A stretch of DNA of 64,000 bases from Carnobacterium iners (GTDB lineage: Bacteria > Bacillota > Bacilli > Lactobacillales > Carnobacteriaceae), in assembly GCF_900177385.1 (NCBI RefSeq), contig NZ_FXBJ01000002.1, positions 1,616,001-1,680,000 of the forward strand, read 5' to 3'. The position numbers were made by a program, and so were the translations under genes. The notes under the pieces are model-generated. The model had not been told where the DNA came from. It saw only the letters and a program-made list of their open reading frames with translations, and ran no database searches. Position 1 is the stretch's first letter. Each line of letters starts with the position of its first letter. Positions 1-52,433 of this stretch are shown one piece after another.

Positions 1-213
1 AATGGACTTGGAGAATTGAGAGTACAAGCCTTATGTTATACAGTTGGAGCATTTTTGAAATTTCCAATAGCATGGGTTTTAGTGCATTATCTAGATTCTT
101 GGATAGGTATAATTATAGCTAATATTATTGCAATGGGGTTATATAGTATTATTCAACCATTTTGGTTAAATAGAATATTAAAAAATAAAATTGGAGGTCA
201 AAATAATGTTTGA
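1..213 (+). CDS. Polysaccharide flippase, C-terminal end (partial)
   Basis: The reading frame is open from base 1, so only the last 70 residues are in the window. They hold two hydrophobic segments separated by a short loop and end in a basic tail. This fits the last helices of a Wzx/MATE-like flippase that moves lipid-linked sugar repeats across the membrane. The next genes make UDP-FucNAc, which supports a glycan role, but the family call rests mainly on context. The gene overlaps the start of capE by 8 bp, so the two are translationally coupled. Confidence 0.6.
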   Translation, partial: NGLGELRVQALCYTVGAFLKFPIAWVLVHYLDSWIGIIIANIIAMGLYSIIQPFWLNRILKNKIGGQNNV

Positions 214-1252
214 AGATAAAATATTATTAATAACAGGTGGTACAGGTTCTTTTGGAAATGCTGTATTAAAGAAATTTTTAGATAGTGATATTAAAGAAAT
301 ACGTATTTTTTCAAGAGATGAAAAAAAACAAGATGATATGCGTAAAAAGTATAATAATCCTAAAATTAAATTTTTTATTGGTGATGTAAGAGACCCGAAT
401 AGTATACGTAATGTAATGTATAACGTTGATTTTGTATTTCATTCTGCCGCATTGAAACAAGTTCCTTCTTGTGAGTTTTTTCCAATGGAAGCAGTGAAAA
501 CGAATGTGATTGGAACAGACAATGTTCTTAATGCAGCAATTGAAGCAGGAGTCGAAAAAGTTATTTGTTTATCTACAGACAAAGCAGCGTATCCCATCAA
601 CGCGATGGGAACTTCTAAAGCAATGATGGAAAAAGTTTTCGTTGCTAAGTCACGAAATGTTAGTCCAGACCAAACATTAATATGTGGGACTAGATATGGT
701 AACGTGATGGCTTCCAGAGGAAGTGTAATTCCGCTGTTTATTGAACAAATAAAAGCAGGGAATCCATTAACAGTTACTGAATCAAGTATGACTCGATTTA
801 TGATGAGTTTAGAAGAAGCGGTAGATTTAGTTGTTTTCGCATTTCATAACGCTAAACAAGGTGATATCATGGTTCAAAAGGCACCTGCAAGTACAATCGA
901 TACGTTAATAAAAGCGTTGCAAAAAATATTTGATACGAATGTACCTGTTGAAGTTATTGGAATTAGACATGGGGAAAAGATGTATGAATCACTATTAACT
1001 AAAGAAGAAGCTGCGCACTCCATTGATATGGGAGGATTTTATAGAGTTCCTTCAGATAAAAGGGATTTAAATTATGGCAAATTCTTTGAAGAAGGAAATA
1101 TTAACGCTGTGCATATCAATGAATACAACTCTGAAAACACAGAACAGCTTACAGTTGAACAATTAGTAGAAAAATTATTAAAATTAGATGAAATACAAGA
1201 CGCATTAATCGGCTGGGGGTCTCCATATGCAAATATTGGTAACCGGATCTAA
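206..1252 (+). CDS. capE: UDP-N-acetylglucosamine 4,6-dehydratase/5-epimerase
   Basis: First enzyme of UDP-N-acetyl-L-fucosamine synthesis: it dehydrates and epimerises UDP-GlcNAc. I start it at the ATG at 206 (MFEDKILLITGG) because GGAGG lies 9 bases upstream; an in-frame TTG at 191 lies upstream of that RBS. The protein is 348 residues, normal for CapE/FnlA. It has the Rossmann motif TGGTGSFG near residues 9-16 and the STDKAAYPINAMGTSK segment, where Met replaces the usual SDR tyrosine, as is typical of this branch. It overlaps capF by 26 bp, consistent with one operon. Confidence 0.9.
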   Translation: MFEDKILLITGGTGSFGNAVLKKFLDSDIKEIRIFSRDEKKQDDMRKKYNNPKIKFFIGDVRDPNSIRNVMYNVDFVFHSAALKQVPSCEFFPMEAVKTNVIGTDNVLNAAIEAGVEKVICLSTDKAAYPINAMGTSKAMMEKVFVAKSRNVSPDQTLICGTRYGNVMASRGSVIPLFIEQIKAGNPLTVTESSMTRFMMSLEEAVDLVVFAFHNAKQGDIMVQKAPASTIDTLIKALQKIFDTNVPVEVIGIRHGEKMYESLLTKEEAAHSIDMGGFYRVPSDKRDLNYGKFFEEGNINAVHINEYNSENTEQLTVEQLVEKLLKLDEIQDALIGWGSPYANIGNRI

Positions 1253-2336
1253 TGGATTTGTAGGGAAAAATCTAATTGCTGAATTGAATAATCAAGGCTA
1301 CAAAGATATAATAGAATTTGATAGAAACACGGATAAAAACTTATTAGAAGAATTTACCAAAAAATGTGATTTTGTTTTCCATTTAGCTGGGGTAAATCGT
1401 CCAAAAAATGAAAAAGAATTTATGCAAGGTAATTTTGGATTTACTTCTGATTTATTACAAATGCTCAAAAAAAATAATAACAAAGCTCCGGTACTTATTA
1501 CTTCATCTATCCAAGCTGAAAAAGATAATCCATATGGGATAAGTAAACGTGCTGGTGAAGAGTTATTGATTAATTATGAAAAAGAAACAGGAGCTAAGGT
1601 ATTTGTTTACCGTTTAGCGAATTTATTTGGAAAATGGAGTCAACCCAATTACAATACAGTAGTAGCTACTTTTTGCCATAACACTGCTAGGGATATCGAT
1701 ATTCATGTAAACGACCCAGAAGCTAAGTTAACTCTATGTTATATTGATGATGTAATAAAAGAGTTTATATTAGCTCTAGAAAATAAAACTCAAGTAAGTG
1801 GGGATTTTTATAGAGTACCCATAGAGTATGAGACTACTCTGGGTAAGGTAGCATCTTTAATTAAAAGCTTTAAAGAGAGTCGTTCTAATTCAATCGTTCC
1901 AAATATGGGAAACGAACTAACTAAAAAATTGTATAGTACTTATTTAAGCTTTTTACCAGAAAATAATTTCTCTTATGATTTAAAAATGAATGTTGATCAA
2001 AGAGGATCTTTTACAGAATTCATAAAAACCCCCGATAGAGGTCAAGTTTCAATTAATATTTCTAAACCTGGAATTACTAAAGGAAACCATTGGCACCATA
2101 CAAAAAACGAAAAATTTTTAGTCGTAAGTGGAGAAGGTCAAATACGCTTCAGGAAGCTTCACTCTGATGAGATTATTAAATATAATGTTACTGGAGAAAA
2201 ATTACAAGTAGTAGATATACCGGTAGGCTATACGCATTCAATTGTAAATATTGGAAATACTGAATTAGTTACTGTAATGTGGGTAAATGAAATTTTTGAT
2301 CAAAATGATCCTGATACTTATTATGTGGAGGTATAA
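1227..2336 (+). CDS. capF: UDP-2-acetamido-2,6-dideoxy-hexulose reductase (CapF type)
   Basis: Second UDP-FucNAc enzyme. The 369 residues contain an N-terminal SDR domain (GSNGFVGKNL near residue 8; YGISKRAGEELL carrying the Tyr-x3-Lys pair) and a C-terminal cupin domain from about residue 250 with HHTKNEKFLVVSGEGQ and a later HS histidine. This two-domain build is the signature of CapF/FnlB, which acts on the CapE product. It starts inside the capE end and is followed one base later by capG. Confidence 0.9.
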   Translation: MQILVTGSNGFVGKNLIAELNNQGYKDIIEFDRNTDKNLLEEFTKKCDFVFHLAGVNRPKNEKEFMQGNFGFTSDLLQMLKKNNNKAPVLITSSIQAEKDNPYGISKRAGEELLINYEKETGAKVFVYRLANLFGKWSQPNYNTVVATFCHNTARDIDIHVNDPEAKLTLCYIDDVIKEFILALENKTQVSGDFYRVPIEYETTLGKVASLIKSFKESRSNSIVPNMGNELTKKLYSTYLSFLPENNFSYDLKMNVDQRGSFTEFIKTPDRGQVSINISKPGITKGNHWHHTKNEKFLVVSGEGQIRFRKLHSDEIIKYNVTGEKLQVVDIPVGYTHSIVNIGNTELVTVMWVNEIFDQNDPDTYYVEV

Positions 2337-2337
2337 G

Positions 2338-3462
2338 ATGAAAAAATTAAAAGTAATGACTGTTGTAGGAACAAGACCTGAAATTATTCGTTTATCAGCT
2401 GTTATAAATAAATTAGAAGAATCAGAAGCTATTGAGCATGTATTGGTCCATACTGGCCAAAATTATGACTATGAATTAAATGAAGTGTTTTTTGAGGACT
2501 TTCATTTAAGGAAACCAGATTATTTTTTAAATGCGGCAACTGGAACGGCAACAGAAACGATTGGAAATATTTTGATTAAAATTGATCCAGTCATGGAAGA
2601 AGTGAAACCAGACGCATTTTTAATTTTAGGAGATACAAATAGTTGCTTATGTGCAATAGCAGCTAAAAGAAGGCAAATTCCTATTTTTCATATGGAAGCG
2701 GGAAATCGGTGCTTTGATCAACGTGTTCCTGAAGAAACGAATCGTAAAATTGTAGATCATACGGCAGATATTAACTTGACTTATAGCGATATTGCTAGAG
2801 AGTATTTACTGGCAGAAGGGTTACCTGCCGATCGAATAATAAAAACAGGGAGTCCAATGTTTGAAGTGTTAAACTCTAAAAAAGAAGATATTAAAAAATC
2901 AACTATATTAGAAAAATTAAATTTAAAAAAAAATGAATATTTTGTTGTCTCAGCACATCGTGAAGAAAATATAAATTCAGAAGAAAACTTTACAGATTTA
3001 GTCGAAACACTAAACACAATTGCAGATAAATACAAATTACCAATTATTGTTAGTACACATCCTAGAACAAAAAAAATGATAGAAGAAAAAAACATACTAT
3101 TCAATCAGCATATAAAATTAATGAAACCACTTGGCTTTGATGATTATAATAAACTCCAATTAACTGCTAAAGCTGTTTTAAGTGATAGTGGTACTATAAG
3201 TGAAGAGTCATCGATACTTAATTTTCCGGCGTTGAATATAAGGCAAACTCACGAAAGGCCAGAGGCTATGGAAGAAGCATCTGTGATGATGGTTGGACTG
3301 GAGAAAAAAAGGATTTTACAAGGCTTAGAAATATTAGAGGGAAATAAAGGAGACACATTCAGAGAGGTCTCAGACTATAGTATGCCTAATGTTTCGGATA
3401 AAATACTAAGAATAATAATATCTTACACAGACTATGTGAACAGAGTAGTTTGGGGTAAGTAG
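2338..3462 (+). CDS. capG: UDP-GlcNAc 2-epimerase family enzyme (CapG/FnlC type)
   Basis: Third step to UDP-L-FucNAc, a C2 epimerisation. I start at ATG 2338 (MKKLKVMTVVGTRPE), with GGAGG at 2327-2331; the frame is open further upstream but that would overlap capF by about 50 bp. The 374 residues show the epimerase-2 motifs GTRPE, HTGQNYD, GDTNS, HMEAGNRCFDQRVPEE and SDSGTISEE. Gene order capE-capF-capG is the same as in Staphylococcus aureus type 5/8 capsule, so the exported glycan probably contains FucNAc. Confidence 0.9.
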   Translation: MKKLKVMTVVGTRPEIIRLSAVINKLEESEAIEHVLVHTGQNYDYELNEVFFEDFHLRKPDYFLNAATGTATETIGNILIKIDPVMEEVKPDAFLILGDTNSCLCAIAAKRRQIPIFHMEAGNRCFDQRVPEETNRKIVDHTADINLTYSDIAREYLLAEGLPADRIIKTGSPMFEVLNSKKEDIKKSTILEKLNLKKNEYFVVSAHREENINSEENFTDLVETLNTIADKYKLPIIVSTHPRTKKMIEEKNILFNQHIKLMKPLGFDDYNKLQLTAKAVLSDSGTISEESSILNFPALNIRQTHERPEAMEEASVMMVGLEKKRILQGLEILEGNKGDTFREVSDYSMPNVSDKILRIIISYTDYVNRVVWGK

Positions 3463-3463
3463 A

Positions 3464-3756
3464 ATGAATAAATGGCTTTTGATGTGGCCGCGGAATATGG
3501 TGGAGTATTGTCAATATTAAGACATATATCTGTGGGTGCAGACACATTTGCCTATTCGAATAACTATGATAGGATTTCAAATACTAGATGGAGTGATATT
3601 TTCGATGAATTTATAGACACCATCTTTTTAGGTAAAGAGGGTAAAGACCTAGGTTATACTATTATCTTCAAGTTTATCCAAATATTTAATAAAAACTACC
3701 AGTTTTTTCTAATATTAGTTGATATATTTTTCACTACTTTATTAAAACCTGAATAA
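3464..3756 (+). pseudogene. Glycosyltransferase N-terminus, broken
   Basis: Right after capG, where a FucNAc transferase is expected, the frame beginning at 3472 reads AFDVAAEYGGVLSIL, resembling the N-terminus of CapL/WbuB-type GT4 transferases. A better start (MNK) at 3464 is in another frame, so a frameshift near 3472 is likely. Homology seems to fade after about 30 residues and the frame stops at 3756 inside the end of an IS1380 remnant. I read this as a glycosyltransferase cut short by insertion and deletion; the residues after the first 30 are not recognisable. Confidence 0.45.
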
Positions 3757-4003
3757 TTCATAGATTTCTTCAAAAGCTACTTAATGTGTATTGTAGCGCT
3801 ATTTTTTATTTGATTTTCTTCCACTCTTTGGGTGTGAAAAAAGAACCCCAATCTGTTATGGTTAAAGCGGCCAAAATAAACCATGAAAGTGGTTCTCTCA
3901 ATGGCTACATTACACGAAAATCACTTGCTTTTCAATTCTAAAATATCCATTTCAAACAATGGAGGAAATCTTTCAACTGATTCTGGATTAATATTGGCTA
4001 AAC
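3748..4003 (+). mobile_element. IS1380-family element, left-end remnant
   Basis: Begins with the terminal repeat CCTGAATAATTCATA, matching the ends of the intact IS1380-like copy at 41623-43301. At 3901 it encodes the first ~36 transposase residues (MATLHENHLLF, then GGNLSTDSGLIL), the same start as the intact copies. The frame is cut near 4003, where IS4-type sequence begins. Confidence 0.75.
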
Positions 4004-4162
4004 CATTTATTAAAAGCAGAATTTGTTTTATACTTATCCATGATTTTGGTCCTTTTTATTAGTCTTGGATGAGTCATCTAAGTTCAGTATAAAGGACTTT
4101 TTGTCTAATAGAATAATATAAATGAATTTACGAAACATTATATGTTTCATGTAACACTAGTG
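4004..4162 (-). mobile_element. IS4-family element, 5' remnant
   Basis: Carries, on the minus strand, the first ~13 codons of the same IS4-like transposase found at 29774 and 35477, then the upstream non-coding end and the terminal repeat ending in CACTAGTG at 4162. The rest of the IS is missing. It is fused to the IS1380 remnant, so two insertions plus a deletion shaped this gap in the glycan locus. Confidence 0.8.
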
Positions 4163-4412
4163 ATAGTCGCAGTTATAGCATTTTGGAAGTCAAAAATATG
4201 CCACTCAATCAAGCCACTATTATAACGCATTAATTATTGCGCTAATTACTAATCCATTAACGTGAGTCAATCCAAGTGCTATGAAAGTTGTTCAATACTA
4301 TTCGATATTTTTGATGTTATTGGTGCCTAAAATAATAAGTTTATTTAAGAAAAATGAAAAACTATTGGTTTATCTAGTTGTGATAGGTTTATTAATGATA
4401 ATGTTGCTATAG
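4163..4412 (+). pseudogene. EpsG/Wzy-like polymerase, C-terminal remnant
   Basis: A short frame at 4281-4412 (44 codons) encodes two hydrophobic stretches around PKIISLFKKNEK, which resembles the end of EpsG-type polysaccharide polymerases. The bases from 4163 give further pieces in other frames. It abuts the IS4 remnant, so the polymerase gene seems to have been largely deleted. Family assignment is tentative. Confidence 0.4.
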
Positions 4413-4453
4413 AGCAACCCACAATACATGTTTTTTAGGAGAAGTGATAATTT

Positions 4454-5584
4454 ATGACTAGAAAAAAAATTTTACAAGTTACTTCATGTTTTAAGTATGG
4501 CGGAACTGAGGCATATATAATGAACAACTATAGAGAAATCGATAGAAATAATTATAATTTTGACTTTTGGATATTTAAGGAAGAAGAATCACCATATGAA
4601 GAAGAAATTAATCGTTTAGGAGGAAAAATATATCATGGTGAATTGCCTGAATTTAATAGGATAGTGCCTTTTATTAGATCGCTTGTCCTGCATATAAAGA
4701 GTAATGGTCCATATGAAGCTATCCATTCTCATATAAATATAATGAATGGTTGGGTTATGTTAGCTGCTTTTATAGGTGGTATTAGTATAAGAATTTCCCA
4801 TTCTCATTCGAATTCAGGGAAATATACTGATAATATAATTAAAAAGTTATATTACAAAATATTAGAGTATATGATAAAAGTATTTAGTAACAAGAAACTA
4901 GCGTGTAGTTTAGAGGCAGGCAATTATCTATATGGAGAAAAATATTTCAGATTGTACGGTGAAGTTGTAAAAAATGGAATAGAACTTAATGAATATATTA
5001 ATAACTATTCTGATAATATATCTAAATTAAGAAATGAATATTTAATACCAGAGAATCATATAGTAGTAGGTAATATTACAAGATTTGATGAGAATAAAAA
5101 TCAAGAATATATAATCAAAATATTTAAAGAATTAAAGAAAATAGAGCCAAACATAACATTAATATTAGGTGGGAGTGATGGAGGGCAATTAGCTTATGTG
5201 AAAGAAAAGTCGCGTAAACTGAATTTAGATAAGAGTATCAGATTTATCGGGACGAGAAATGATGTTAATGACTGGTTGCATATAATGGATGCCTACTTAT
5301 TTCCCTCTTTTCATGAGGGGTTAGGTATCGCAATATTGGAAGCACAAGCTTCAGGACTAAAGTGCTTTGTTTCAACAGGAATTCCAAAAGAGGTAGACTT
5401 AGGTATAGGTCTGGTAGATTTTTTGGACTTAGGGAAAAATCCTAAATATTGGGCTAAACACATTTTAAATAATTTGATAAATAATGATGTACATTCAGAA
5501 CTCATTTCCACTACTTTTGATGCTAATGGATATTCTATTGCATCCTCTATTCTTAGAATCCAAGAAATATATAAAGGAGAATAA
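4454..5584 (+). CDS. Glycosyltransferase family 4 (EpsF-like)
   Basis: A 376-residue GT-B fold enzyme that probably adds a sugar to the lipid-linked repeat at the cytoplasmic membrane face. The N-terminus MTRKKILQVTSCFKYGGTEAYI has the usual GG loop; the second domain has NITRFDENKN and the nucleotide-sugar site FPSFHEGLGIAILEAQASG (E-x7-E type) near residues 280-300. AGGAGA lies 13 bases before the ATG. It is followed 3 bp later by another glycosyltransferase. The sugar it transfers cannot be read from the sequence. Confidence 0.85.
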   Translation: MTRKKILQVTSCFKYGGTEAYIMNNYREIDRNNYNFDFWIFKEEESPYEEEINRLGGKIYHGELPEFNRIVPFIRSLVLHIKSNGPYEAIHSHINIMNGWVMLAAFIGGISIRISHSHSNSGKYTDNIIKKLYYKILEYMIKVFSNKKLACSLEAGNYLYGEKYFRLYGEVVKNGIELNEYINNYSDNISKLRNEYLIPENHIVVGNITRFDENKNQEYIIKIFKELKKIEPNITLILGGSDGGQLAYVKEKSRKLNLDKSIRFIGTRNDVNDWLHIMDAYLFPSFHEGLGIAILEAQASGLKCFVSTGIPKEVDLGIGLVDFLDLGKNPKYWAKHILNNLINNDVHSELISTTFDANGYSIASSILRIQEIYKGE

Positions 5585-5587
5585 AAG

Positions 5588-6748
5588 ATGAAAAAGACTG
5601 TCCATTACTTCTGTTTTGGTGTTGATGATCATACAAAGCAAAATTTATACTATTTCCCTTCGGCCCAACCTAAAATACAGTATATAATTGATACCCTAAA
5701 GAATAATGAATATATGGTAAATATGGTATCATCATGTTCAATAAAAAACAACGGTTTCTTTAAATCGAAAATATATAAAGTTGATAATAATGAAAAACAT
5801 GTATTTTTTTCATCCTTCAAGACACCACTTAAAGTCTTAAATAAAATATCAATATTTATGACGTTTGTACAATTTATTTTTTATATGCTTTTTTGCGTTA
5901 AAAAAAATGATATTGTGTTAATCTATCATTCTCTTTATTATATAAGACCGATGGAATTGCTAAAAAAACTTAAAAAGGTAAGATATATACTAGAAGTAGA
6001 AGAGTTGTACTCATTCTTGGATGATAACACTGAAGTTTTTATGGATCAAGAAATTGAGTTTATTAATTATGGCTCAGCATATCTATTAGTTAACGACTTA
6101 ATAGATGAAAAAATATCTAGAAGAGAAAAAAAAGCTGTAATATCTTACGGAAATTACAGTGTTCCACCTAAAATTTCATGTCGGAATTTTGAATACCATG
6201 ACTATATTAATGTGGTATATGCAGGGGTCATCGAAAATAGAAGGAAGGCAGCTTTTATAGCAATTGAATCTGCAAAACATCTAAATGAAAAATATTGTAT
6301 TCATATTCTTGGTTTCGGTGAAAAGAGTGATATAATCAATTTAAAAAAAAGAATCAATGAAATTAACAAAGAATTATCAGAAGAGCGGATTATATTCCAC
6401 GGAACAAAGTCTGGTGATGAATATTCTTGTTTTTTACAATCATGTGATGTTGCTCTTAGTACACACTCATATGATAAGAAAGATTTACCAGCTGCGGATT
6501 ATTCTTTTCCTTCTAAAATAATAACTTATATGGCAAATGGATTAAAAGTAGTATCGTCTGATGTTCGAAGCGTAAGATATTCGAAAATAGGTAGAAATAT
6601 TACTTTTTATGAAAAAAATACTCCCGAAGATATCGCAAAATCAATTGAATCATTAGAATATGTTTCTCAAGTCGACTCAAGAGAAAAGATAAATGAACTA
6701 GATAAACAATTCAAGAAAAACTTGAAAAATCTAATTGATGAATTTTAA
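5588..6748 (+). CDS. Putative glycosyltransferase
   Basis: This 386-residue protein has a hydrophobic stretch near residues 95-115 and a C-terminal half that looks like a GT-B donor domain: VVYAGVIENRRKAAF, FHGTKSGDEY, CDVALSTHSYD and FPSKIITYMANGLKVVSSD. This is typical of divergent GT4 enzymes in exopolysaccharide clusters. It is coupled to the gene before it (3-bp gap, AAAGGAGA RBS) and is the last gene of the cluster before IS66 debris. Confidence 0.75.
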   Translation: MKKTVHYFCFGVDDHTKQNLYYFPSAQPKIQYIIDTLKNNEYMVNMVSSCSIKNNGFFKSKIYKVDNNEKHVFFSSFKTPLKVLNKISIFMTFVQFIFYMLFCVKKNDIVLIYHSLYYIRPMELLKKLKKVRYILEVEELYSFLDDNTEVFMDQEIEFINYGSAYLLVNDLIDEKISRREKKAVISYGNYSVPPKISCRNFEYHDYINVVYAGVIENRRKAAFIAIESAKHLNEKYCIHILGFGEKSDIINLKKRINEINKELSEERIIFHGTKSGDEYSCFLQSCDVALSTHSYDKKDLPAADYSFPSKIITYMANGLKVVSSDVRSVRYSKIGRNITFYEKNTPEDIAKSIESLEYVSQVDSREKINELDKQFKKNLKNLIDEF

Positions 6749-6816
6749 AAAGGTAATGTAGGTTTATATTGGTAAAGTGCTATTTGCTCAGAGGCATCTT
6801 TGCTGCTTTGGTAAAG

Positions 6817-7647
6817 CTACATATAGGACTTTGAGGTAGCCGGTTTATTTGGCTCTTTTAAAACCTGCATCGTCGTTTCATCTACATGAATAACTCGTGA
6901 TTGCAGTAACTGCTTATGTAACAAGTCATATATAGGCTTTAACCATAGGTTAGAAGCTGTGATAACCCAATTTTCCATAGTGGCACGACTCAGTACGATC
7001 CCATAATTTTCCCATTCTTTTTCTTGACGATAAAAGGGGATACTCAATTCAAATTTTTGATGCATTAGCCAGGCTACTGAACTTGCAGAAGCTAAACTTC
7101 TAGGGATAACCGGTGCAGGTGTTGGAGCTTTTACAATAGCGTCTGCACCATCTTTCTTACAAGTTGGACACTCATAAGCATAACGCACAATTTTTCTCAC
7201 CTTCAGGTGAGCAGGAATAAATTCAATTTCTTGTCGAACTTCTTCTTTTCCAATAATGTTTAATTCTGTATTGCACCATTCACAATGGCATTCTTCTTCA
7301 TGTAATAGACAATTAACGTTGACGACTGGAAGTTCTTTTATCATTTTTTCTTTTTATCCAATTGTCCGTCTTTTTACTTTAAAGTCTTCTAAGTGATTGA
7401 TTTCAGGTGCTTTTTTATCTTGGTCGATTTCTGCCTCATTAAATAGGTTTAAATCTTCGTCCGTAAATAAGCTCAGTTGGTTTTCAACAGGTGGGATCAT
7501 TTTAGACTTCTCACTAGAACGACCAAATAACTTTTGAGTAAGTAGCTGCACTTGTTCGGTTAATAATGCTAACTGTTCGGTTAACTGTCTATTTTGCTCA
7601 TTTGCTAACTCTAGTTTTTTGATCAAGATTTGTTCTAATTCAGTCAT
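6817..7647 (-). pseudogene. IS66 transposase TnpC, truncated with stop
   Basis: The N-terminus (residues 1-97) has a leucine/glutamine-rich coiled coil followed by KLFGRSSEKS, the IS66 TnpC start. An in-frame TAA at 7354-7356 interrupts it; the same frame continues with CHCEWCNTEL (zinc fold), ECPTCKKDGAD and RATMENWVI, and ends at VHVDETTMQVL, near the first catalytic Asp, before a stop at 6817. Half of the DDE domain is missing, so it is inactive. Confidence 0.85.
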
Positions 7648-7754
7648 TTTTCACACCTACCTTTTCTTCAATTTGATACTCTTATTATACCAGAAATCGC
7701 ATGCGAAAAACAGATAAAATCGTTGGTTTGACAACGATTTTATCTGTTTTTAAA

Positions 7755-7908
7755 TTAATTGAAATACCCAGGTTTCACTTTCTTTATTGCTTTTGGTTGA
7801 TCCATTTTCAATCCTTCTAAAAGCCATCCCATCAATTTGTCGACGCATATCTGTTTTTCCACAAATAATAAATACGTTCTTTACCTTGGTAAGATCAATG
7901 ACTTTCAT
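7755..7908 (-). pseudogene. IS66 TnpB remnant with internal deletion
   Basis: From ATG 7908 the minus strand reads TKVKNVFIICGKTDMRRQIDG, the TnpB start. It then jumps, with a frame change, to WLLEGLKMDQPKAIKKVKPG and a stop at 7755, which is the TnpB C-terminus. The central ~70 residues are gone. Its start overlaps the end of the upstream tnpA gene, as usual for IS66. Confidence 0.75.
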
Positions 7909-8101
7909 GAGTACTCAATTCCGATAGAATAATTCGCAGAAACTCCGCTTTAATTTCTTCGTATAAGAACAGTTCTGTTCGGGAGAACTTAACACCAGTG
8001 ACTAACGTAGAAGGAGAAGCCTTCGGCTTATAGAGCTGATTTGTTGGAGCTTTTGAATCATTGGCTAATACCACTGGGACAATAGCTTGTTTTGCTTTCA
8101 T
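7895..8101 (-). CDS. IS66 accessory protein TnpA-like
   Basis: A 68-residue protein that overlaps tnpB (ATGA-type overlap) and begins 6 bases after AGGAGG. Position and the C-terminal pattern (IKAEFLRIILSELS) fit the C-terminal part of IS66 TnpA. It is shorter than usual for the family (about 100 residues), so it is probably truncated or a short variant. Confidence 0.6.
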   Translation of the reverse strand: MKAKQAIVPVVLANDSKAPTNQLYKPKASPSTLVTGVKFSRTELFLYEEIKAEFLRIILSELSTHESH

Positions 8102-8107
8102 TAATAA

Positions 8108-8188
8108 AACCTCCTGTAAAACTTGAATTGGTTTAATTTTTACAGGAGGTTGTGTATTTTGAAAGATACCTTTCTATTAGGCGCTTAC
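8108..8188 (-). mobile_element. IS66 right end with RBS-sequestering hairpin
   Basis: A 14-bp perfect inverted repeat (arms 8108-8121 and 8138-8151) contains the AGGAGG of tnpA in one arm, so read-through RNA would hide the ribosome site, a known IS self-protection device. The element ends at GTAAGCGCC (read on the minus strand, 8188-8180), the IS66-type terminus. Confidence 0.65.
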
Positions 8189-8252
8189 GGTTTAAATTTA
8201 TTTTTATGTAGGGGTACAATTGATAGGTTACAAAAAAAGAATAAAAAAAAGA

Positions 8253-9258
8253 GACATCCTGTATAATTAAGTTACCACACCAAATCAGGAGGATGTCCCT
8301 ATGTCAATTATAACAGAAGAAATGCGTGTAAGAAAGAAAATATGATTACTCCATTAAATATGGGGTTTCGAAAGCAGCTAGAAGATACAACACGAATCTT
8401 CAATTTATTTATCGGCATTTAAAAAAGTACGATGGTTCAGTTAAAAGCTTAGCCTTAATTTCAAGGAGACCTAAGTCTCCTTATCCCAATCGACATACGG
8501 TTGAAGAAATGAAGTTGATTAAAAAGAAATATAAGCATTTTGCTCATGAGGGGCTAGCAGAAGTGTACGCCCAATTAATGAAAGAGGGTTATTTAAGAAG
8601 TTTTAACGGCATGAAACGTATGATTAGAAAGTATATTAAGAAAAAAGAAGCTTCAAAGCGAAAATGGAAAAAGAATAATCAGGGACCAAAATAAGAAAAA
8701 ACCTATCCAGGCGAACTTGTCCAAGTAGATATAAAATATGTCCCTAAAGAAACCATTAGGTTTGACAGCAAAGGCATTAGCTACTATCAAATTACCGCAA
8801 TCGATACGTATAGTTCTAAAAGAGTACTAGAAATAGTGGATGAAAAAAGTGCAACAAATACAGCACTTTTTGCTGAAAAACTTGAAGAAAAGATGGGTTT
8901 TAAAATAGAGTGTATTCAAACAGATAACGGTTCTGAATTTATGTTGGTACATCCTAACTCAAAGGGAAAGACTATTTTCCAACTAGTTTTAGACGCTTTT
9001 TCTATTCATCATACCCACACAAGACCTTATTCTCCTTGGTAAAATGGTATCGTTGAACGATCTCATCGGATAGATGGAGACCGTTTTTATAGTAGACATT
9101 TATTTAAGTCGAAGGAAGAGTTGATTAAAAAACATAGTCGTTACGCTAACTGCTATAATAGTATCGCTAAACAAAAATATAACTTTAAGTCGCCAAATCA
9201 AGTAGTAGAGAGTTATTTTAAACAACTAGCTGAGAACGCTGTAGGATATCTAGAATAA
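8253..9258 (+). pseudogene. Integrase-core (IS481/IS3-like) transposase, decayed
   Basis: From ATG 8301 the frame shifts near 8345, then runs in one frame to 9258 with stops at 8692-8694 and 9040-9042. Recognisable parts are an HTH region (GVSKAARRYNTN), VQVDIKYV (first Asp), QTDNGSEF (second Asp) and NGIVERSHR (Glu), so the DDE triad is present. The RBS is buried in an inverted repeat, GACATCCT (8253-8260) with AGGATGTC (8290-8297). Three lesions make it inactive. Exact IS ends were not identified. Confidence 0.8.
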
Positions 9259-9269
9259 GTTGTTAAAAA

Positions 9270-9371
9270 GATTTGACATAGAGCCCCCGTAAGGAGCAGC
9301 CCACCTTTATAGTCCGCATTTTGATGCGGTGATCACTAATAGGGTAAGCTCCTTACGCTCTATGTTAAATC
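9270..9371. repeat. Nested long imperfect palindrome
   Basis: Outer arms GATTTGACATAGAGC (9270-9284) and 9357-9371 pair with one mismatch; the next arms CGTAAGGAGC (9288-9297) and GCTCCTTACG (9348-9357) are perfect; an inner hairpin CCGCAT-TTTG-ATGCGG lies at 9314-9329, with partial pairing between. It sits between the transposase pseudogene and the RADAR genes and codes for nothing visible. It could be an IS terminus, a structured RNA or a recombination site. Confidence 0.7.
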
Positions 9372-9452
9372 GTGAATCATATTTGAGCTGAGTTCATTTA
9401 TAATTTAATTTGCAGGATTCTAACTTTGTAACAAATGATTGTGTTTTCTAGA

Positions 9453-9477
9453 CGCTTACGGTTTAAATTTATTTTTA
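9453..9477. repeat. 25-bp direct repeat of IS66 end plus flank
   Basis: These 25 bp are identical to 8182-8206. Both copies consist of the IS66-type terminus CGCTTAC followed by the same flanking bases. This suggests that a second IS66 end once lay here and that the 1.27 kb between was duplicated or inserted by IS activity. Confidence 0.7.
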
Positions 9478-9488
9478 AGTAGAGCATT

Positions 9489-9510
9489 AACATTGAGAAT
9501 GTTATATAAT
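9489..9510 (+). promoter_or_regulatory. Candidate rdrA promoter with palindromic operator
   Basis: TATAAT at 9505-9510 is preceded directly by the inverted repeat AACATT-GAG-AATGTT (9489-9503). No good -35 is seen at 17 bp, so the promoter may be weak or activator/repressor dependent. It is the only clear -10 between the IS debris and rdrA. Confidence 0.4.
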
Positions 9511-9565
9511 AGAAATGGTGAATACGTTGTTACAATAAAATATCTTATATTACAAAGGGGACTTT

Positions 9566-9607
9566 ATGAAATATTGGCATCAATACACTAACTTGATGAC
9601 TAGATAA
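9566..9607 (+). CDS. 13-residue upstream ORF (possible leader peptide)
   Basis: ATG 9566 follows AAAGGGG by four bases and encodes MKYWHQYTNLMTR, ending at 9607, two bases before the rdrA ribosome site. Its position would let translation of the short ORF affect rdrA. No stem or attenuator is obvious, so it may be chance. Confidence 0.3.
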   Translation: MKYWHQYTNLMTR

Positions 9608-9620
9608 GATGGAGGAAATA

Positions 9621-12260
9621 ATGAATAAAATTAATTGGATGGCGGCAAGGACAGAAGTTACATTAACTGCAAAAGAGTATAGCTATAAAAAATCGAATTA
9701 TTTATTTCACATTAGTATTGAAAGGATTTTAGAACTTTGTGACCAATATAAGATAAACGCTAAAGATTCTAATAGATCTATTAGTATTGTAGGTGAAAGA
9801 GGTAGTGGGAAAACTTCTGTAGTAAAAACGGTAAGTCAAATATTAAAAGCTAAAGATTATTTTGTTTTTGATATTGTAGATCCAGGAGTTTTTTCTGGGA
9901 CTATAAGTTTGTTAGAATTATTAATAAGTAACATTTATTTATATATTAATAAAAATAGTAAAGCAAATAATTATTCTAATCTATTTGGACACTCAAATAG
10001 TAGAGAAATTTTAGAATTTAAAATGATTGAAGAAATTGAAGGTATTATGGATACTTTGGCAAATTTCAGAATCGATAAAAGTGTATTTTCTAATGAAAAT
10101 ACAAGCATGGAAGTATTAAATGATATCAATAATCGAGTATCGTTTAATAAAAATCTTTCAAAGTTAATTAATGATCTTAAGGTATATACAGGTAAAGAAA
10201 ATATTGTATTATGTATTGATGACTTAGATTTGGTTGATAACAAAGATACTTATAATATGCTAGAAGATATTAGAAAATATTTACTGAAAGATATTACCGT
10301 CATTGTTTCATACAGGGATGTCCAGTTGTTGGATGCAGTCGTCCAAAAAAATTTGAACGAAAATAAAGAGCTGAAAAATGAAGGTTTTATAGATAGTAAT
10401 GATATTTATAATCAGTCAACGAAGTATATTGAAAAACTTCTACCGCTCTCATCAAGAGTTTATTTACAAAAAACAAATGAAGTATGGAGTCAAAAAAATT
10501 CAGATGTTTTATATGCACTTTTAAATTTCGAAAAATTAAATTCTGAAAAATTAAATTACGAAAAAGAATTTGTGGAAAAATATGCAGAAGATGAAAAAAC
10601 AATGAATTTTTTAAAGGGAGCTACTGTAAAAGAATGGTTGATCTTTGCTATTTTTAAAAAAACAAGAATTAACATTACGCCAGTTGACGCAAAAGAAGAA
10701 ATGATTGTGGGATTACCGGATAATATGAGGGGACTTTTACAATTAATTGAAATTGTTCATGAGAGACTTGTGATGCCGAAAAATAATGATGAAAAATACC
10801 TGGAAATAATTAGAAATAATTTAAAAATATATAAAGAATACTATTACGATTTTATCTCTGAAAAACTGCCAACTGATGAAATGAAAATCATCAAAAAATG
10901 GGAAGGATCACCCGTAGAGAGTAAGAATTACAATATTTACCAAGCACTTTTTCATGAAATTAAAAAATCGGTAGTAAGTGCTAACAAAGAAATGAAGTCA
11001 TTTGGAAATATGGATCAGTTATTGAATATTAACTTAGTTTCCAATGAGAATGTCACAATTGGTGATGTTTATGAAATCTTAGAGAGATATAAAATGACAA
11101 ATGCAGATGACCCAGAGGCTGTATTCTTTGTTTACGTTATCAAGGTTATTTATAGTATTGAACTATTGCGCTTATATATTAATGGAAATATTAAAAAAGA
11201 AAATAGTATAGATTCTTATTTAAATTTGCTTAATAATAAGATAACTCCGGATGGTTTAATTTATGTAGAAGAATCAGATAACATAATTAAGTATAACAAA
11301 CAGTTCATTGAGAAGATTAATTTGAATATGGACGAATTTTCCAATAGGAGCATATTGATATTAGATACTTTGATAAAAAAATTAATGTATACAACATTTA
11401 CTGCGAAAGGTAATAATAGTCAAAATATCCGATTTAAATTGAATAACACTAAGGAAGCGGAGAATAAAAGTAATGGTAATTTCATTCAAACAAAAAATAT
11501 TACGTATGCATATAGATCTTACTACAGTAAAAATATTAAAGAAATAACTTTGTCAAAAAACTACTCCTATTATTTTGATTTGCTAACATATCTCACTAAA
11601 AGAAATTATATAGAAGATAGTTTTGAAGATAAAAATTATATATATTATTCAATGTTCGATATGGATAAATTACTTCGTGTTAATTTTGGTGGAGCAAATC
11701 CTAACTACACACTATATTCTGTAATAGATCAAATAAAGAATCTATTTGTTTTTTCAAATACAGAAAAAGGCTTTACCTATTTGTATGAAAATTTTGAAAA
11801 CAAAGAAAATAAAAATATATTTAGAGAATATACAAAAGAAGAATGGAATTCACTTGACTTACTACTAAAAAATAGGCAAGAATTAGTAGAAAATTTTGAA
11901 GAAATAAAAAGAGCTGATGTAGAAAACAATGAAAAATTATTTAAAAAATATAAAGAATTAGAAAGTGATTTATACTCAATTAATAAACATACAGAATCGC
12001 AATCACTAGCAATTGAAATAACTAATTTTAAAAAGAATATAACATCAAATATTGTGTTAATTCCTACTAGTAAAAAAGGGCTAAGAGATGCAATAAAAGA
12101 TGTCTTAAAAAAAGAAAACGATAAATTAAATAAAACTGAACTCAATGAACTCAATAATATGGTTATTAGGGCGAAGTTAAGGGGTCCATTAAATAAACAA
12201 GATAGAGAGCAATTTATAAATATCTTGGATGCAAAAAACATTAGATATGAATTAAAATAG
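9621..12260 (+). CDS. rdrA: RADAR system ATPase RdrA (KAP-like P-loop NTPase)
   Basis: Start chosen at ATG 9621, with GGAGG at 9611-9615 (an in-frame ATG at 9609 overlaps that site). The 879 residues carry Walker A GERGSGKT at 58-65 and Walker B VLCIDD at 196-201, the pattern of KAP-type STAND NTPases, followed by a long, lysine- and asparagine-rich helical region. Known RdrA proteins are of this size and are always next to the large deaminase RdrB, as here (15-bp gap). In described RADAR systems (E. coli, Citrobacter, Streptococcus suis) RdrA and RdrB form a giant complex that edits adenosine nucleotides or RNA on phage infection. Base composition is very AT-rich. I infer the name from architecture plus partner; the paired order is strong support. 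Confidence 0.87.
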   Translation: MNKINWMAARTEVTLTAKEYSYKKSNYLFHISIERILELCDQYKINAKDSNRSISIVGERGSGKTSVVKTVSQILKAKDYFVFDIVDPGVFSGTISLLELLISNIYLYINKNSKANNYSNLFGHSNSREILEFKMIEEIEGIMDTLANFRIDKSVFSNENTSMEVLNDINNRVSFNKNLSKLINDLKVYTGKENIVLCIDDLDLVDNKDTYNMLEDIRKYLLKDITVIVSYRDVQLLDAVVQKNLNENKELKNEGFIDSNDIYNQSTKYIEKLLPLSSRVYLQKTNEVWSQKNSDVLYALLNFEKLNSEKLNYEKEFVEKYAEDEKTMNFLKGATVKEWLIFAIFKKTRINITPVDAKEEMIVGLPDNMRGLLQLIEIVHERLVMPKNNDEKYLEIIRNNLKIYKEYYYDFISEKLPTDEMKIIKKWEGSPVESKNYNIYQALFHEIKKSVVSANKEMKSFGNMDQLLNINLVSNENVTIGDVYEILERYKMTNADDPEAVFFVYVIKVIYSIELLRLYINGNIKKENSIDSYLNLLNNKITPDGLIYVEESDNIIKYNKQFIEKINLNMDEFSNRSILILDTLIKKLMYTTFTAKGNNSQNIRFKLNNTKEAENKSNGNFIQTKNITYAYRSYYSKNIKEITLSKNYSYYFDLLTYLTKRNYIEDSFEDKNYIYYSMFDMDKLLRVNFGGANPNYTLYSVIDQIKNLFVFSNTEKGFTYLYENFENKENKNIFREYTKEEWNSLDLLLKNRQELVENFEEIKRADVENNEKLFKKYKELESDLYSINKHTESQSLAIEITNFKKNITSNIVLIPTSKKGLRDAIKDVLKKENDKLNKTELNELNNMVIRAKLRGPLNKQDREQFINILDAKNIRYELK

Positions 12261-12275
12261 AAAGGTTTCTAAAAG

Positions 12276-14834
12276 ATGATAAATGCAGATAGATTGATGC
12301 GAATTATGTATAAAGAACTAGATTTCAACTTATTTGCTTTAAATAAATTGGATACAGAAAATAAATCAGTTGCAGAAAATGGTATGAAACAATTTTCTAT
12401 GTTTGATTTAAAGAATGATCAGTTTATAAAGATTTTGAAAAATAAATATTTAGAAGTTTACCCTGATAATTATAATATGGATGAAGTAAATATTATTATT
12501 GAAGAACAGAAACAAAATATTCAAAATAAGTTTGGACAAACAAATACACTATTCTTATTTCCCTTTTATGCAGAAAAACTATTTAAATTTGTTAATTCTC
12601 ATATTAGAGTTGATTTTAATGATATTTTAGAATGGGATGGATTTATAAATAAAGTAGATGGAAATATTTTTATTGCAGCGTTTTTAGCATCAAATAATAT
12701 TAACTCAAATGCTTATCAACCAGATGAAATTATTTCTCATACAAATAACCGTCTTTACAAGATACTGGATAAAGGCGTTGCTGAAAATCACATGCATTTA
12801 AAAGCTTCAGGGTACACGTCTGATTTAAATTGGGTAACATTATTAGGTCATAAGATATTTGATACAGAGGCACTAACCAAGTTTGTTAGTAATGAAAATA
12901 ATTTTGGGAAATTGAAGACTAGCGGGAAAAAAAATGAGGATATCATTTTATACATTCAAAAAATCAAATTGGTTAGAATCTATTTAATGCAGTTCATAGA
13001 TGTTTATAAATCTGATAATAAGTATTTTTTAGAAGAAAAGAAGAAAGAATATACTGACTATTGCATTAGTGAAAAAGAAATGTATCGAATGCTAGTTGTT
13101 AATACTAGTGTAGAATTAGAAGTATTTCGCGAGAAAATTCAAAAAGTAGAACGAATTCGACGACATAATTTTAGGATAAATACAGCAGATATTAAGCAAA
13201 GTTATTTGATAGAACGTAAATTTTTAACTGAGTTATTTACAATCCTCTTGAATAACGAATTTACAAGATTCTTCATGTACCTATTTAACTTTTATCTGGC
13301 AGGATTAAACCTTATAAAGTTTGAATTTGTTCAAGACAATATTGGTATGGGTTTTGGTAAGTTTAAGGAGAAAGAAAGTGTCAAAGAAGGTTTTTTAAAT
13401 AACAACTTGTTGATTTATGAAAGTGTATTTGATAAATATTATAAAGAAGGTAATATAAAAAAAATCGAAATTCGCATCGCTCCAAAAAGTAAAAAAGACT
13501 TAATAAAATTAATCGATACACTAAATAAAACCAATGAAAAATATTATAGAAAATATAAGGCAAAAAATGAAGCTATTTCAAAAATTGAATATGGGATTAT
13601 CATTCATTACATAAAAAATAGTGATTCACTAAATAATGGAGATAATATATCAATGTGGAGAAACAAGAAAATGCGCGTATCTCTTGATAGAGAATCAAAG
13701 AAAACTTCTAGTTTTTTTAGTCTATCAGCGGCAAGCCATCTTTATAAAATAAAAATTATTGGAATCGATGCTGCAAATGTAGAGTTAAGATGCAGACCAG
13801 AGGTTTTCGGCCCCGTGTTCCGAAAACATAGATTAGAAAGTAAAAAAAGTAATAACTTGAATTTTACCTATCATGTAGGAGAAGAATTCAATACGATCTG
13901 CAATGGTCTCCGGGCAATTGATGAAGTAGTAGAGTTCTTGAATTTTCGAAGAAATGATAGATTGGGTCACGCGTTAGCGCTAGGAATGGAAATAAAAACT
14001 TATTTTACTAAAAAGCGAAATTTTTTGACATCTACTTTACAAGATTATGTAGATGATATTATTTGGATGTATTATCTTGTCGCATCGGAAAATTCTGTTG
14101 ATTATCACAGCAATATGTTACTTTATTTAGCAGAAGAATTTGAAAAATATTCCAAAAAATTATTTTGCAATACAAAATTATGTTTTGAATTTTCTATGTA
14201 CGATTATATGTGTGCATATCAATTGCGTGGCGATAATCCTAGCGAATATAAGGTATCTGAAGTATTTGAATGTAGAAAAATGATGATATACGAGAATATA
14301 ATGAAAAAACCAAATAAAAAATATCAATTGAATAGTGATAATAAAAAACACCAAGAGGCTTTTATGAATAAAAAAGCACAAAAATTGTATTATTTATATC
14401 ATAATAATCTACTTTTACGTCAACAAGGGCAACAAACTGAAATATTCGAAGTTCAGTCGTATTATATAGAAGCAGTAGAATTAGCACAAAATTTATTACA
14501 AAAGAAAATATATGAAAAAGGAATAAGTGTTGAAGTTAATCCATCTTCTAATCGCAAAATTTCATCGATCACAAAATTTATTGATTTACCAGCTTTTGGA
14601 ATTAACCGTGTAGGACTAAAGAAAGAATCTTTAAAAGATTTAGACTATCATATACCTGTAAGTATTAATACAGATGATAGCAGCATCTTTCAAACCAATT
14701 TAAATAATGAATATTCGATGTTAGCGGCGGCATTATTCAGATATGGTTTTGCAAATGAAGATGTTTATCAGTATATAGAATATTTAAGGAAATCTTCTTT
14801 AGAGCAATCATTTATTAGAGAAGTACCTTTTTAA
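12276..14834 (+). CDS. rdrB: RADAR system adenosine deaminase RdrB
   Basis: An 852-residue protein containing a split adenosine deaminase domain. The zinc pair is H172-M-H174 (NHMHLKA); HVGEE at 533-537 supplies the His and catalytic Glu of the ADA HAGE motif; RLGHA puts the next His at 565; NTDD at 798-801 supplies the metal Asp and its partner. All ADA catalytic residues are therefore kept, unlike ordinary ADA (about 350 residues), because large inserts separate the motifs, as in RdrB. Weak RBS AAAGG; spacing to rdrA suggests one transcript. Expected role: ATP/dATP or RNA adenosine deamination to inosine during phage attack, together with RdrA. Confidence 0.9.
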   Translation: MINADRLMRIMYKELDFNLFALNKLDTENKSVAENGMKQFSMFDLKNDQFIKILKNKYLEVYPDNYNMDEVNIIIEEQKQNIQNKFGQTNTLFLFPFYAEKLFKFVNSHIRVDFNDILEWDGFINKVDGNIFIAAFLASNNINSNAYQPDEIISHTNNRLYKILDKGVAENHMHLKASGYTSDLNWVTLLGHKIFDTEALTKFVSNENNFGKLKTSGKKNEDIILYIQKIKLVRIYLMQFIDVYKSDNKYFLEEKKKEYTDYCISEKEMYRMLVVNTSVELEVFREKIQKVERIRRHNFRINTADIKQSYLIERKFLTELFTILLNNEFTRFFMYLFNFYLAGLNLIKFEFVQDNIGMGFGKFKEKESVKEGFLNNNLLIYESVFDKYYKEGNIKKIEIRIAPKSKKDLIKLIDTLNKTNEKYYRKYKAKNEAISKIEYGIIIHYIKNSDSLNNGDNISMWRNKKMRVSLDRESKKTSSFFSLSAASHLYKIKIIGIDAANVELRCRPEVFGPVFRKHRLESKKSNNLNFTYHVGEEFNTICNGLRAIDEVVEFLNFRRNDRLGHALALGMEIKTYFTKKRNFLTSTLQDYVDDIIWMYYLVASENSVDYHSNMLLYLAEEFEKYSKKLFCNTKLCFEFSMYDYMCAYQLRGDNPSEYKVSEVFECRKMMIYENIMKKPNKKYQLNSDNKKHQEAFMNKKAQKLYYLYHNNLLLRQQGQQTEIFEVQSYYIEAVELAQNLLQKKIYEKGISVEVNPSSNRKISSITKFIDLPAFGINRVGLKKESLKDLDYHIPVSINTDDSSIFQTNLNNEYSMLAAALFRYGFANEDVYQYIEYLRKSSLEQSFIREVPF

Positions 14835-14945
14835 CACCACTTTACAAGTTTTTATGTCCTTTAGGATATGAAAATACAAATAACTACAAAACTCTTGTAT
14901 GATTAGTTTGAGATGAAAACCAACAAAAGAAAAGGAGTCGTTTAA

Positions 14946-16095
14946 TTTGCTGTTAGTAGAGATAATCGAAAAGGTTTAGTTAGTGGACTCATTTTTTCAA
15001 GTTTAGCGGTATTTAATTGTTTTAATATAGCTATTCGTATGAATACGTTACTAGTAGATTTTTTGTTGCTTTTATTAACCTTAGCTGCTATTTCTGGAAT
15101 CTATGTTTACCGAGACAACTTCAAGGAAGCCAGTTTTCATACGGCATTTATTTTATCTGTTCTAGGAATTGTAAAGAATAGTGGCGTGTTTTTTGTTTTA
15201 TTAGCGCTAGCGTTTTATCTGTTTATCGCCATAAAAAATATGGCTTTAGAGTCCAAACATTAGTGCTTGTATTAGGAACAGTCGCGTCTTCTTTTTTATT
15301 GGATACTTTATGGGGTAGACATGTGAAAACGACCTTTGTTGAGATGACATCTAAACAAAGGCCAGTCTTTCGTCTTATCAAGAGATTTTTTCAAGTAAGT
15401 CTTCAGACATTATTGATGAGGTTACATCAGCCTTTGTAAAGACCATTCTTAGGCTAGATACGTTGTCGACACAAGGTATTTTATTGATTTAGGTGTTATT
15501 TATTGGAGCGATGCTGTTTATTCGTTTTGACTTTAAACGCAAAAGCAAGTTGATGGCTATCTTTATCGTTTTAGATAGTACGATTGTGTTGTATTGTGTC
15601 GGGATTTTATTGATGTTTTTTTCTATGCCGACAGATGAAGCGCTTGTTTTAGCTGGTTTTGAACGCTATGCATCTAGTATGGTCATTTTTGGCCTTGGCG
15701 TGGACACATTGGATATGGCCGTCGAGATGGATAGACTTTTCTATGAGCAGTCCTTAGAAGCTCGTACGTATAAGTTATTTAAAAGTATCAAGCATAAAAA
15801 AGCTTATCAAACGTCAACGATGTTGCTTTTCTTTGTTTCAATCGGTTTATTGTTGTCCGAAAACAATGGAATGATTTATACAGCGAATGAGTATCAAACG
15901 ACTATTCCTTATCAGGTGAAGCAGGTTACAGGCGATAATATGCGTCTAAACGAAAAGCGTTACTTGATTGTTTCTAGTGATAAAGAGGATGTTGACAACT
16001 ACCTTGTTTCATTTGTTGGGAAATACTTTTTCTATAGCCCGACTGTTGATGCAAGAGAGTTTTTTACGATGGACGATGATCACTTTACTTTCTAA
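14946..16095 (+). pseudogene. Multi-pass membrane protein, frameshifted
   Basis: The frame from 14946 (no start codon; AAAGGAG at 14933-14939) encodes several hydrophobic segments up to a stop near 15263, continues in another frame (LVLGTVASSFLLDTLWG), shifts again near 15390 and meets a TAG near 15490 before resuming at 15493-16095. The joined product would be about 380 residues with six or more membrane spans and a C-terminal extracytoplasmic part. FERYASSMVIFGLG resembles segments of cell-envelope glycan membrane enzymes (GT-C or polymerase-like), but this is only a guess. Several lesions make it a pseudogene. Confidence 0.6.
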
Positions 16096-16235
16096 GCTCT
16101 AACTAAAAAATTAATCGGGGTAAATCTTAAATCTAGTATGTGTTCAACAACCGATTTACTAAAAGGTATCTAGTATTAGCTAATTCTAGTTGAAATTAAC
16201 TAAATCAAGATGGATTGATTTAGTTATTTACCGAG

Positions 16236-28229: not shown

Positions 28230-28276
28230 ATTATTGTTGTTGTTGATTGTGCTGCTTTTATTGTATAGTATTAGAT

Positions 28277-29008
28277 ATGGAAGTGCTTTATTTGGCTAAA
28301 ATTAAAGTTAGATACAGAAATGATTTAAACCTTATCCCTATGAGGAATTTTGAAGCTAAAGAAATGGATTTGTTTTTCTCTATTTGTGCAAAGATGAAAG
28401 ATCAAGGAACAGCAAAAGTCCGGTTTGATTTTGAGCAATTAAGAGAATTAAGCGCTTATAAACCTACTTCTTTAGATAGATTTTCTGATAGTCTAGAGAG
28501 TGTATATGACAAGATGATGCATTTAAGTTATCGGACAGAAACAGAGGACGAAATTGAAAGATTTGCTTTATTTACAGGTTTTAAAATTAGCAAAAAAGAA
28601 CAATACGTTGAAATTTCAGTTAATCCTGATTTAGAACATTTAATTAATCGTTTAACTAAAGAATTTACAAAATTTGAATTAGAAGAGTTTACCGAAATTC
28701 GTTCAAGCTATGCAAAAACCATGTACAGACTTCTTAAACAATTCAAATCAACAGGTTTTTATAAAGTTAAAATAGAAGAATTTAGAACGATACTTGATAT
28801 CCCCGAAAGTTACAAGATGGGCAACATTGATCAAAGAGTTCTTAAGCCAATAAAAGATGAATTAGCTCCTTATTTTGATGATTTAAAAATTATCAAACAT
28901 AAAGCAAGAAAAGAAAATAAAATAGCTGTAATTGAATTTCGTTTCAAAGAAAAGAAATCTAATAAAAATTTTGTACCTTTACACAATTGGTTAGAAGAAT
29001 CGAATTAA
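28277..29008 (+). CDS. repB: Rep_3-family plasmid replication initiator
   Basis: The protein (about 243 residues from ATG 28277; TTG 28292 is an alternative) starts the theta replication of the plasmid by binding the iterons just upstream. It has the two winged-helix layout: KIKVRYRNDLNLIPMRNFEAKEMDLFFSICAKMKD, then FTKFELEEFTEIRSSYAKTMYRLLKQFKSTGFYKV and FRTILDIPESYKMGNIDQRVLKPIKDEL. The start is uncertain because no strong RBS is seen before either codon. It appears full length. Confidence 0.9.
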   Translation: MEVLYLAKIKVRYRNDLNLIPMRNFEAKEMDLFFSICAKMKDQGTAKVRFDFEQLRELSAYKPTSLDRFSDSLESVYDKMMHLSYRTETEDEIERFALFTGFKISKKEQYVEISVNPDLEHLINRLTKEFTKFELEEFTEIRSSYAKTMYRLLKQFKSTGFYKVKIEEFRTILDIPESYKMGNIDQRVLKPIKDELAPYFDDLKIIKHKARKENKIAVIEFRFKEKKSNKNFVPLHNWLEESN

Positions 29009-29033
29009 GTAAAATTATAGGAGATTATTTATT

Positions 29034-52386: not shown

Positions 52387-52433
52387 ATTTATCACCTCGT
52401 ACAAATAATATCATATTCTTTTTTATTAATCAA

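Follow-up and report, generated by a model that had tools for sequence, protein, structure and literature searches.

The 64,000-nucleotide stretch of Carnobacterium iners DNA analysed here (hereafter the window) almost certainly carries a two-gene RADAR system, consisting of rdrA and rdrB. The translated products are homologous to RdrA and RdrB, respectively, the two genes lie side by side with uninterrupted frames, and no catalytic residue has been lost. The pair is a divergent Gram-positive RADAR in a lactic-acid bacterium, and as such a known defence and not a new type of system. The RdrA/RdrB architecture proposed in a first-pass annotation of this DNA is supported by sequence, profile and structure comparison, which together assign both proteins to RADAR and not to unrelated ATPase or deaminase families. 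Weighing against this identification is the low amino acid identity with the five nearest fetched relatives that have both genes (RdrB: 36-40%; RdrA: 23-28%). RADAR is rare, being found in 270 of about 38,000 genomes according to PMC9994260, and this rare defence is here extended to Carnobacterium. A limited word-combination search of the literature returned no report joining RADAR with lactic acid bacteria or with Carnobacterium.

Both genes, of the 879 and 852 codons first annotated, are uninterrupted on the forward strand and directly adjacent, with 15 bp between them, and together make up 5.2 kb of open frame (Table 1). The originally annotated end of the locus, 14834, is exact. Its start at 9489, on the other hand, was placed 132 bases too early, outside the gene, where reading meets six stops, and has been moved to 9621. 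The first ORF in full spans positions 9609-12260 and encodes 883 amino acids when counted from its earliest ATG. The fifth codon appears to be the better start, because of the GGAGG motif placed 5 nt before this ATG and because residue 1 of the Streptococcus suis RdrA pairs with residue 5 of the 883-aa long form (phmmer against PDB). A short ORF with a good ribosome binding site (RBS), located just ahead of rdrA, is a possible leader peptide, judging from the nucleotide sequence.

Table 1. Features of the rdrA-rdrB locus, its flanks and the defence genes further right (positions in the window).
Feature	Position	Strand	Description
Upstream flank	6758-9262		IS66 pieces and broken IS3/IS150-like element; Pfam DDE_Tnp_IS66
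13-codon ORF	9566-9607	+	AAAGGGGA upstream; stops just ahead of the rdrA RBS (from sequence); candidate leader peptide
Putative RBS of rdrA	9611-9615	+	GGAGG, 5 nt before ATG 9621 (from sequence)
rdrA	9621-12260	+	879-aa AAA+ ATPase; Walker A GERGSGKT, Walker B VLCIDD
Putative RBS of rdrB	12260-12265	+	GAAAGG, overlaps the final base of rdrA (from sequence)
rdrB	12276-14834	+	852-aa adenosine-deaminase-fold protein; H172, H174, H533, E536, H565, D800, D801
Downstream flank	14942-16079	+	Broken gene copy; 81% identity to L117 15018-13867
AbiLi-like ATPase	51130-52404		Single open frame, beside the TOTE-type gene
TOTE-type primase-helicase	52626-54206, 54239-55519		Two neighbouring ORFs

The RdrB protein is recognized by both defence-gene and general profile libraries. 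It matches the PADLOC RdrB model (e-value: 1.1e-23) and the NCBIfam RdrB model NF041744 (e-value: 4.4e-45; aligned residues: 38-844), the latter with a score of 154.5 bits, far under the curated equivalog cut-off of 800 bits, which is an annotation threshold and not a biological feature. Among solved structures it matches the Escherichia coli RdrB 8fnw (e-value: 6.2e-21). The seven deaminase residues named in the first-pass annotation are all at their given positions (Table 1) and are invariant in 37/37 rows of an RdrB alignment, comprising the window and 36 of 80 named loci, hand-picked among those with one long ORF. H172, H174, H533, E536 and H565 pair with E. coli H152, H154, H498, E501 and H530 in alignment, as distinct from geometry, where the E. 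coli numbers and roles are those in PMC9994260. By this residue alignment, the four zinc histidines and the catalytic glutamate are conserved. Furthermore, the predicted structure is good (pLDDT: 86.8; pTM: 0.89) and resembles the RdrB entries 8hr7 and 8fnv over near full length (VIA; Z: 34; 719-721 residues; rmsd: 3.2-3.3), while other deaminases, including Cad1, reach Z values of at most 26.6 over about 280-380 residues, mainly in the deaminase domain, among the 50 matches listed. Foldseek likewise aligned the model to RdrB (TM: 0.72/0.78).

Profile libraries were less informative for RdrA. No RdrA model matched the ATPase in PADLOC-DB 2.0.0 or NCBIfam 20.0, which may contain no such model. 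The best Pfam matches, AAA_16 and AAA_22, each remain under their cut-off. The label "KAP-like" initially given to this protein thus finds no backing in Pfam, but its homologue 8fnu was deposited as a "KAP NTPase domain-containing protein". The latter, the RdrA of S. suis, is the best solved relative (phmmer against PDB; e-value: 1.8e-55), with the three other listed matches having e-values above 1. A 32-row RdrA profile extends over residues 3-899 of the 8fnu chain (e-value: 1.9e-90), while its match to E. coli RdrA covers the ATPase part only (e-value: 5.5e-22). The Walker A and B motifs are present as annotated (Table 1). In the alignment of 32 rows (window and 31 of the 80 named loci, hand-picked among those with one long ORF) the Walker residues G67, D204 and D205 (883-aa numbering) are invariant, as are D207, K276 and R374, and K68 is kept in at least 90% of the rows. 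The predicted RdrA structure is middling (mean pLDDT: 68.3; pTM: 0.62), with pLDDT below 50 at residues 550-656 and in several shorter stretches; a C-terminal helical lobe may be present, the model being helical and the profile alignment extending to residue 899 of 8fnu. Nevertheless, 20 of 21 Foldseek matches below 1e-3 are RdrA chains, 8fnu being the first, and in the VIA comparison the RdrA entries score Z 22-26, against 11.9 for the next protein. The rmsd to 8fnu in this comparison (Z: 26) is 20 over 629 residues, and the domain placement is therefore not reproduced in the model.

A genome scan for rdrB confirmed 268 relatives, and the best 80 of these 268 loci were analysed further. With an iterated profile, RdrA was found at 70/80 of the named loci; nine of the remaining ten have fewer than 800 bases of DNA upstream. 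The tenth, L070 (7000-9644), has an rdrB without its N-terminal part and no upstream rdrA match, while the near-identical L036 carries both genes. Where at least 2300 bases are available upstream, rdrA precedes rdrB in 70 of 71 named loci, and the two are directly adjacent in 64/70 (gap limits: -200 to 360 bases). Distances between RdrA proteins correlate with those between the RdrB proteins (Spearman: 0.715; 59 pairs, loci with split or short genes having been dropped), with none of 999 permutations giving a value as high, although common ancestry of the genomes themselves may contribute to the correlation.

A quick RdrB tree of 84 rows (the window, the 80 named loci, L004, L005 and L086; L088, L089, L097 and L098 omitted) placed the window in an eight-member clade of mostly lactic-acid bacteria (SH-aLRT: 100). 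Its other members are Streptococcus sp. CSL10205-OR2 (L007) and Enterococcus alcedinis (L008), both with rdrA and rdrB, Erysipelothrix urinaevulpis (L009), genome G241 of the same order as the window (L086), a MAG labelled Bacteroidota (L006), which may be misbinned, and Streptococcus sanguinis (L027) and Latilactobacillus fuchuensis (L034), each represented by the last ~290 residues of rdrB at a contig end. In all five clade relatives where the DNA reaches (L006, L007, L008, L009 and L086), rdrA lies upstream of rdrB. RADAR in lactic-acid bacteria is therefore a thinly spread lineage in which this pair does not stand alone. Such an example is rare, with rdrB present in 2/395 sampled genomes of the order, but the pair is not unusual in kind, given the E. 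alcedinis and Streptococcus sp. systems in the same clade. A class-wide search gave matches in 10/398 genomes, which are strong in the genome analysed here, in G533, where two genes match, and in G566. The matches in the other seven genomes are weak (1.1e-5 to 8.2e-4); their open frames measure 316-383 aa, and they resemble ordinary deaminases. The two RdrB-like genes of G533 are located ~24 kb apart on contig C1 (523579-525936 and 550128-552656). It is conceivable, yet unlikely, that the clade constitutes a separate RADAR subtype with a trigger of its own, perhaps a different RdrA-RdrB stoichiometry, a long branch and poor recognition by current defence-gene models.

Several relatives show an rdrA gene in more than one piece. 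In E. alcedinis (L008, 5320-7959), rdrA apparently consists of two ORFs, the first of which, 74 aa long, resembles the RdrA N-terminus by eye; this seems to be a pseudogene or an assembly error. Five Bacteroidota loci belonging to Chryseobacterium, Flavobacterium and Tenacibaculum (L032, L042, L064, L065 and L067) have rdrA in two ORFs with the break at nearly the same place, which we read as separating the AAA+ core from the lid and C-terminal lobe, and with the ATG of the second ORF 2-3 nt past the stop. In L055 the gene is split at another place. The gene is in one piece in the relatives L024, L043, L033 and L051, which suggests more than one origin of the split; sequencing errors are possible.

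Annotation may under-count RADAR in bacteria of this kind, since no RdrA model matched and RdrB fell far below the NCBIfam cut-off, as judged from this one pair. The pair leaves the understanding of RADAR unchanged and would provide a natural Gram-positive test system for it; what makes it valuable is how far it diverges from current models, together with side findings among the relatives, namely the Bacteroidota rdrA splitting and a STING-domain gene beside the rdrB of L056.

The pair is embedded in a region rich in insertion sequences and surface-glycan genes. Polysaccharide biosynthesis and glycosyltransferase genes (Pfam) are located upstream, as well as IS remnants, with positions 6758-7831 sharing 90.7% identity with the IS66 of a Carnobacterium viridans plasmid (Pfam DDE_Tnp_IS66). 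The adjoining broken element, labelled IS3/IS150-like by eye, is flanked by a 34-bp direct repeat (94%; 8178-8211 and 9449-9482) just upstream of rdrA. On the downstream side, the broken gene copy lacks the first ~184 codons, about a third, of a gene which is intact in the sibling genome G073 (L117, ORF 13722-15569) and encodes a 615-aa protein that belongs to no Pfam family and looks by eye like a membrane protein. Four siblings match the window at 79-88% identity from ~16230 rightwards, while positions 1-16225 are unmatched in them, as compared over ~18.5 kb in three and, in the fourth, over the 1.06 kb that remain before its contig ends. Furthermore, rdrB was not found in these four genomes, one of which is 92% complete. 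Comparison with the siblings revealed no clean insertion footprint or precise boundary. The 107 bp following rdrB (14835-14941) have similar counterparts at other places in two sibling genomes but match just once in the own genome; similarity to the siblings and own genome revealed no mobile-element end there. The GC content of the pair is 0.263, as opposed to 0.329 for the window. This low GC, the nature of the flanks and the absence from four sibling genomes suggest that horizontal transfer probably brought the pair into the IS-rich surface-glycan region. Similarity searches led us to reject an origin from a plasmid or phage: seven of 72,556 plasmid records match rdrB, all at below 60% identity, no phage matches, and none of eight pattern matches in a viral-contig scan was confirmed.

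The IS remnants and broken genes on either side also raise the question of whether the pair, while homologous to RADAR, is a decayed or silent passenger. Promoter-like sites would fit such a passenger in that they show no excess, being fewer than expected (25 observed; shuffle mean: 39.8). Against it, both ORFs are open over their 5.2 kb with every catalytic residue retained, both genes are preceded by a plausible RBS, and frames as long as these, at 26% GC, would be expected to be lost soon unless under selection. We consider a decayed passenger distinctly improbable, and a RADAR system with both genes apparently intact remains the preferred reading.

By analogy with known RADAR systems, RdrA would form a heptameric AAA+ ring docked onto a dodecameric RdrB shell. 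When a phage infects the cell, ATP spent by RdrA would serve to license RdrB or to feed it; RdrB would in turn deaminate ATP and dATP to ITP and dITP, and the spoiled nucleotide pool would halt phage replication. In its first report, RADAR was reportedly ascribed an RNA-editing chemistry. The ring-on-shell assembly and the conversion of ATP and dATP into ITP and dITP on phage attack are reported for RADAR in PMC9994260, as is the protection against phage conferred by the E. coli, Citrobacter rodentium and S. suis systems when expressed in E. coli, and on this evidence the earlier RNA-editing model is less likely. A RADAR machine run with another chemistry or trigger in this lineage, such as RNA editing or the use of another nucleotide, would be consistent with the long stem (1.46) that leads to this lineage in the RdrB tree and with the PDB entries for RdrA titled "in RNA-loading state". 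The active-site residues are, however, unchanged, the RADAR of S. suis, which has the closest solved RdrA, gives E. coli protection against T-even phages, and PMC9994260 describes a turnover of ATP into ITP and finds no strong support for RNA editing, making such a departure very unlikely.

Compared with the characterized systems, the pair is closest to that of S. suis SS993, which has the closest solved RdrA in sequence and fold, a Gram-positive host and an RdrA with the same MxKINW N-terminus (907 versus 879 aa). It differs from it in sharing only 24% identity in the structural alignment, a comparison confined to RdrA. With the E. coli system (RdrA 8fnt; RdrB 8fnv/8fnw) it shares the RdrB fold from end to end, every zinc and catalytic residue and the AAA+ part of RdrA, while RdrB identity is 19-20% and the RdrA profile match is limited to the ATPase part. 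The type III CRISPR CARF-adenosine deaminase Cad1, whose deaminase domain also turns ATP into ITP, resembles RdrB in that domain (structural Z up to 26.6). The match is, however, confined to it, whereas over its whole length the protein matches RdrB, and its gene is partnered by rdrA. A housekeeping adenosine deaminase lying next to an unrelated ATPase by chance is next to impossible and was ruled out by the TIGR01430 score, the full-length RdrB fold and the pairing: while A_deaminase is the sole Pfam match of RdrB at e-values up to 1, its whole-length match is to RdrB and not to 350-aa deaminases, its 36 bits do not reach the cut-off of 216.55 of the plain adenosine deaminase model TIGR01430, the ATPase matches RdrA in sequence and fold, and rdrA and rdrB remain paired in 70/71 loci.

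RADAR loci optionally include an rdrC or rdrD gene, Csx27-like or SLATT-type, beside rdrB. As the first-pass annotation had stated, none was recognized near the pair. The region downstream of rdrB (14942-16079; ORF 15493-16095, without a Pfam match) was considered as a third gene of the operon and rejected, its ORFs being the truncated, broken copy of the 615-aa sibling gene. Within the window's clade, inspection by eye revealed no third gene behind rdrB wherever the available DNA extends that far. A 252-aa ORF, a possible accessory gene, is located between rdrA and rdrB in Streptococcus sp. CSL10205-OR2 (L007, 7237-7995) and gave no Pfam or PADLOC match at 0.001. Elsewhere, a small third gene follows rdrB in L020, L021, L035, L037, L038 and L047, which form one cluster, and in L055 and L004. 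When L021, L035, L038, L055 and L004 were scanned, a DUF4231/SLATT-type match was obtained in four of the five (below the cut-off in L004 and L021), L035 giving none. In a Prolixibacteraceae MAG (L056, 10679-11338), a gene located 2 bp after rdrB encodes a 219-aa protein with a prokaryotic STING domain (Pfam PF20300; e-value: 4.3e-12) and an N-terminus that is hydrophobic by eye. The protein also matches an effector model that PADLOC labels as TIR (e-value: 1.3e-6; model positions 149-298 of 310). No cyclase was recognized nearby (three neighbouring ORFs scanned, the others viewed by eye), and a phmmer search of the ORFs from the fetched loci gave no second copy of the gene. An operon joining RADAR with STING would be unexpected, and the two are possibly chance neighbours.

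The first-pass annotation had contrasted the intact pair with damaged defence genes further right in the window. This applies to the TOTE-type primase-helicase, which is in two ORFs, but not to the AbiLi-like ATPase, which is one open frame (Table 1). Plasmid-like DNA is found at 26.5-44.9 kb, the best match being a Carnobacterium plasmid (96.5% over 1.4 kb). A Rep_3 plasmid initiator gene (28247-29522) and a Mob_Pre relaxase gene (48872-49819) are located inside the 2.5-Mb contig, and a plasmid thus seems to have integrated between about 26 and 50 kb. Repeats spaced ~250 bp apart occur between long ORFs at about 22.0-23.4, 27.5-28.1, 49.8-50.4 and 58.4-59.4 kb and are common to the sibling G073 (L117), where they were seen as BLAST matches.
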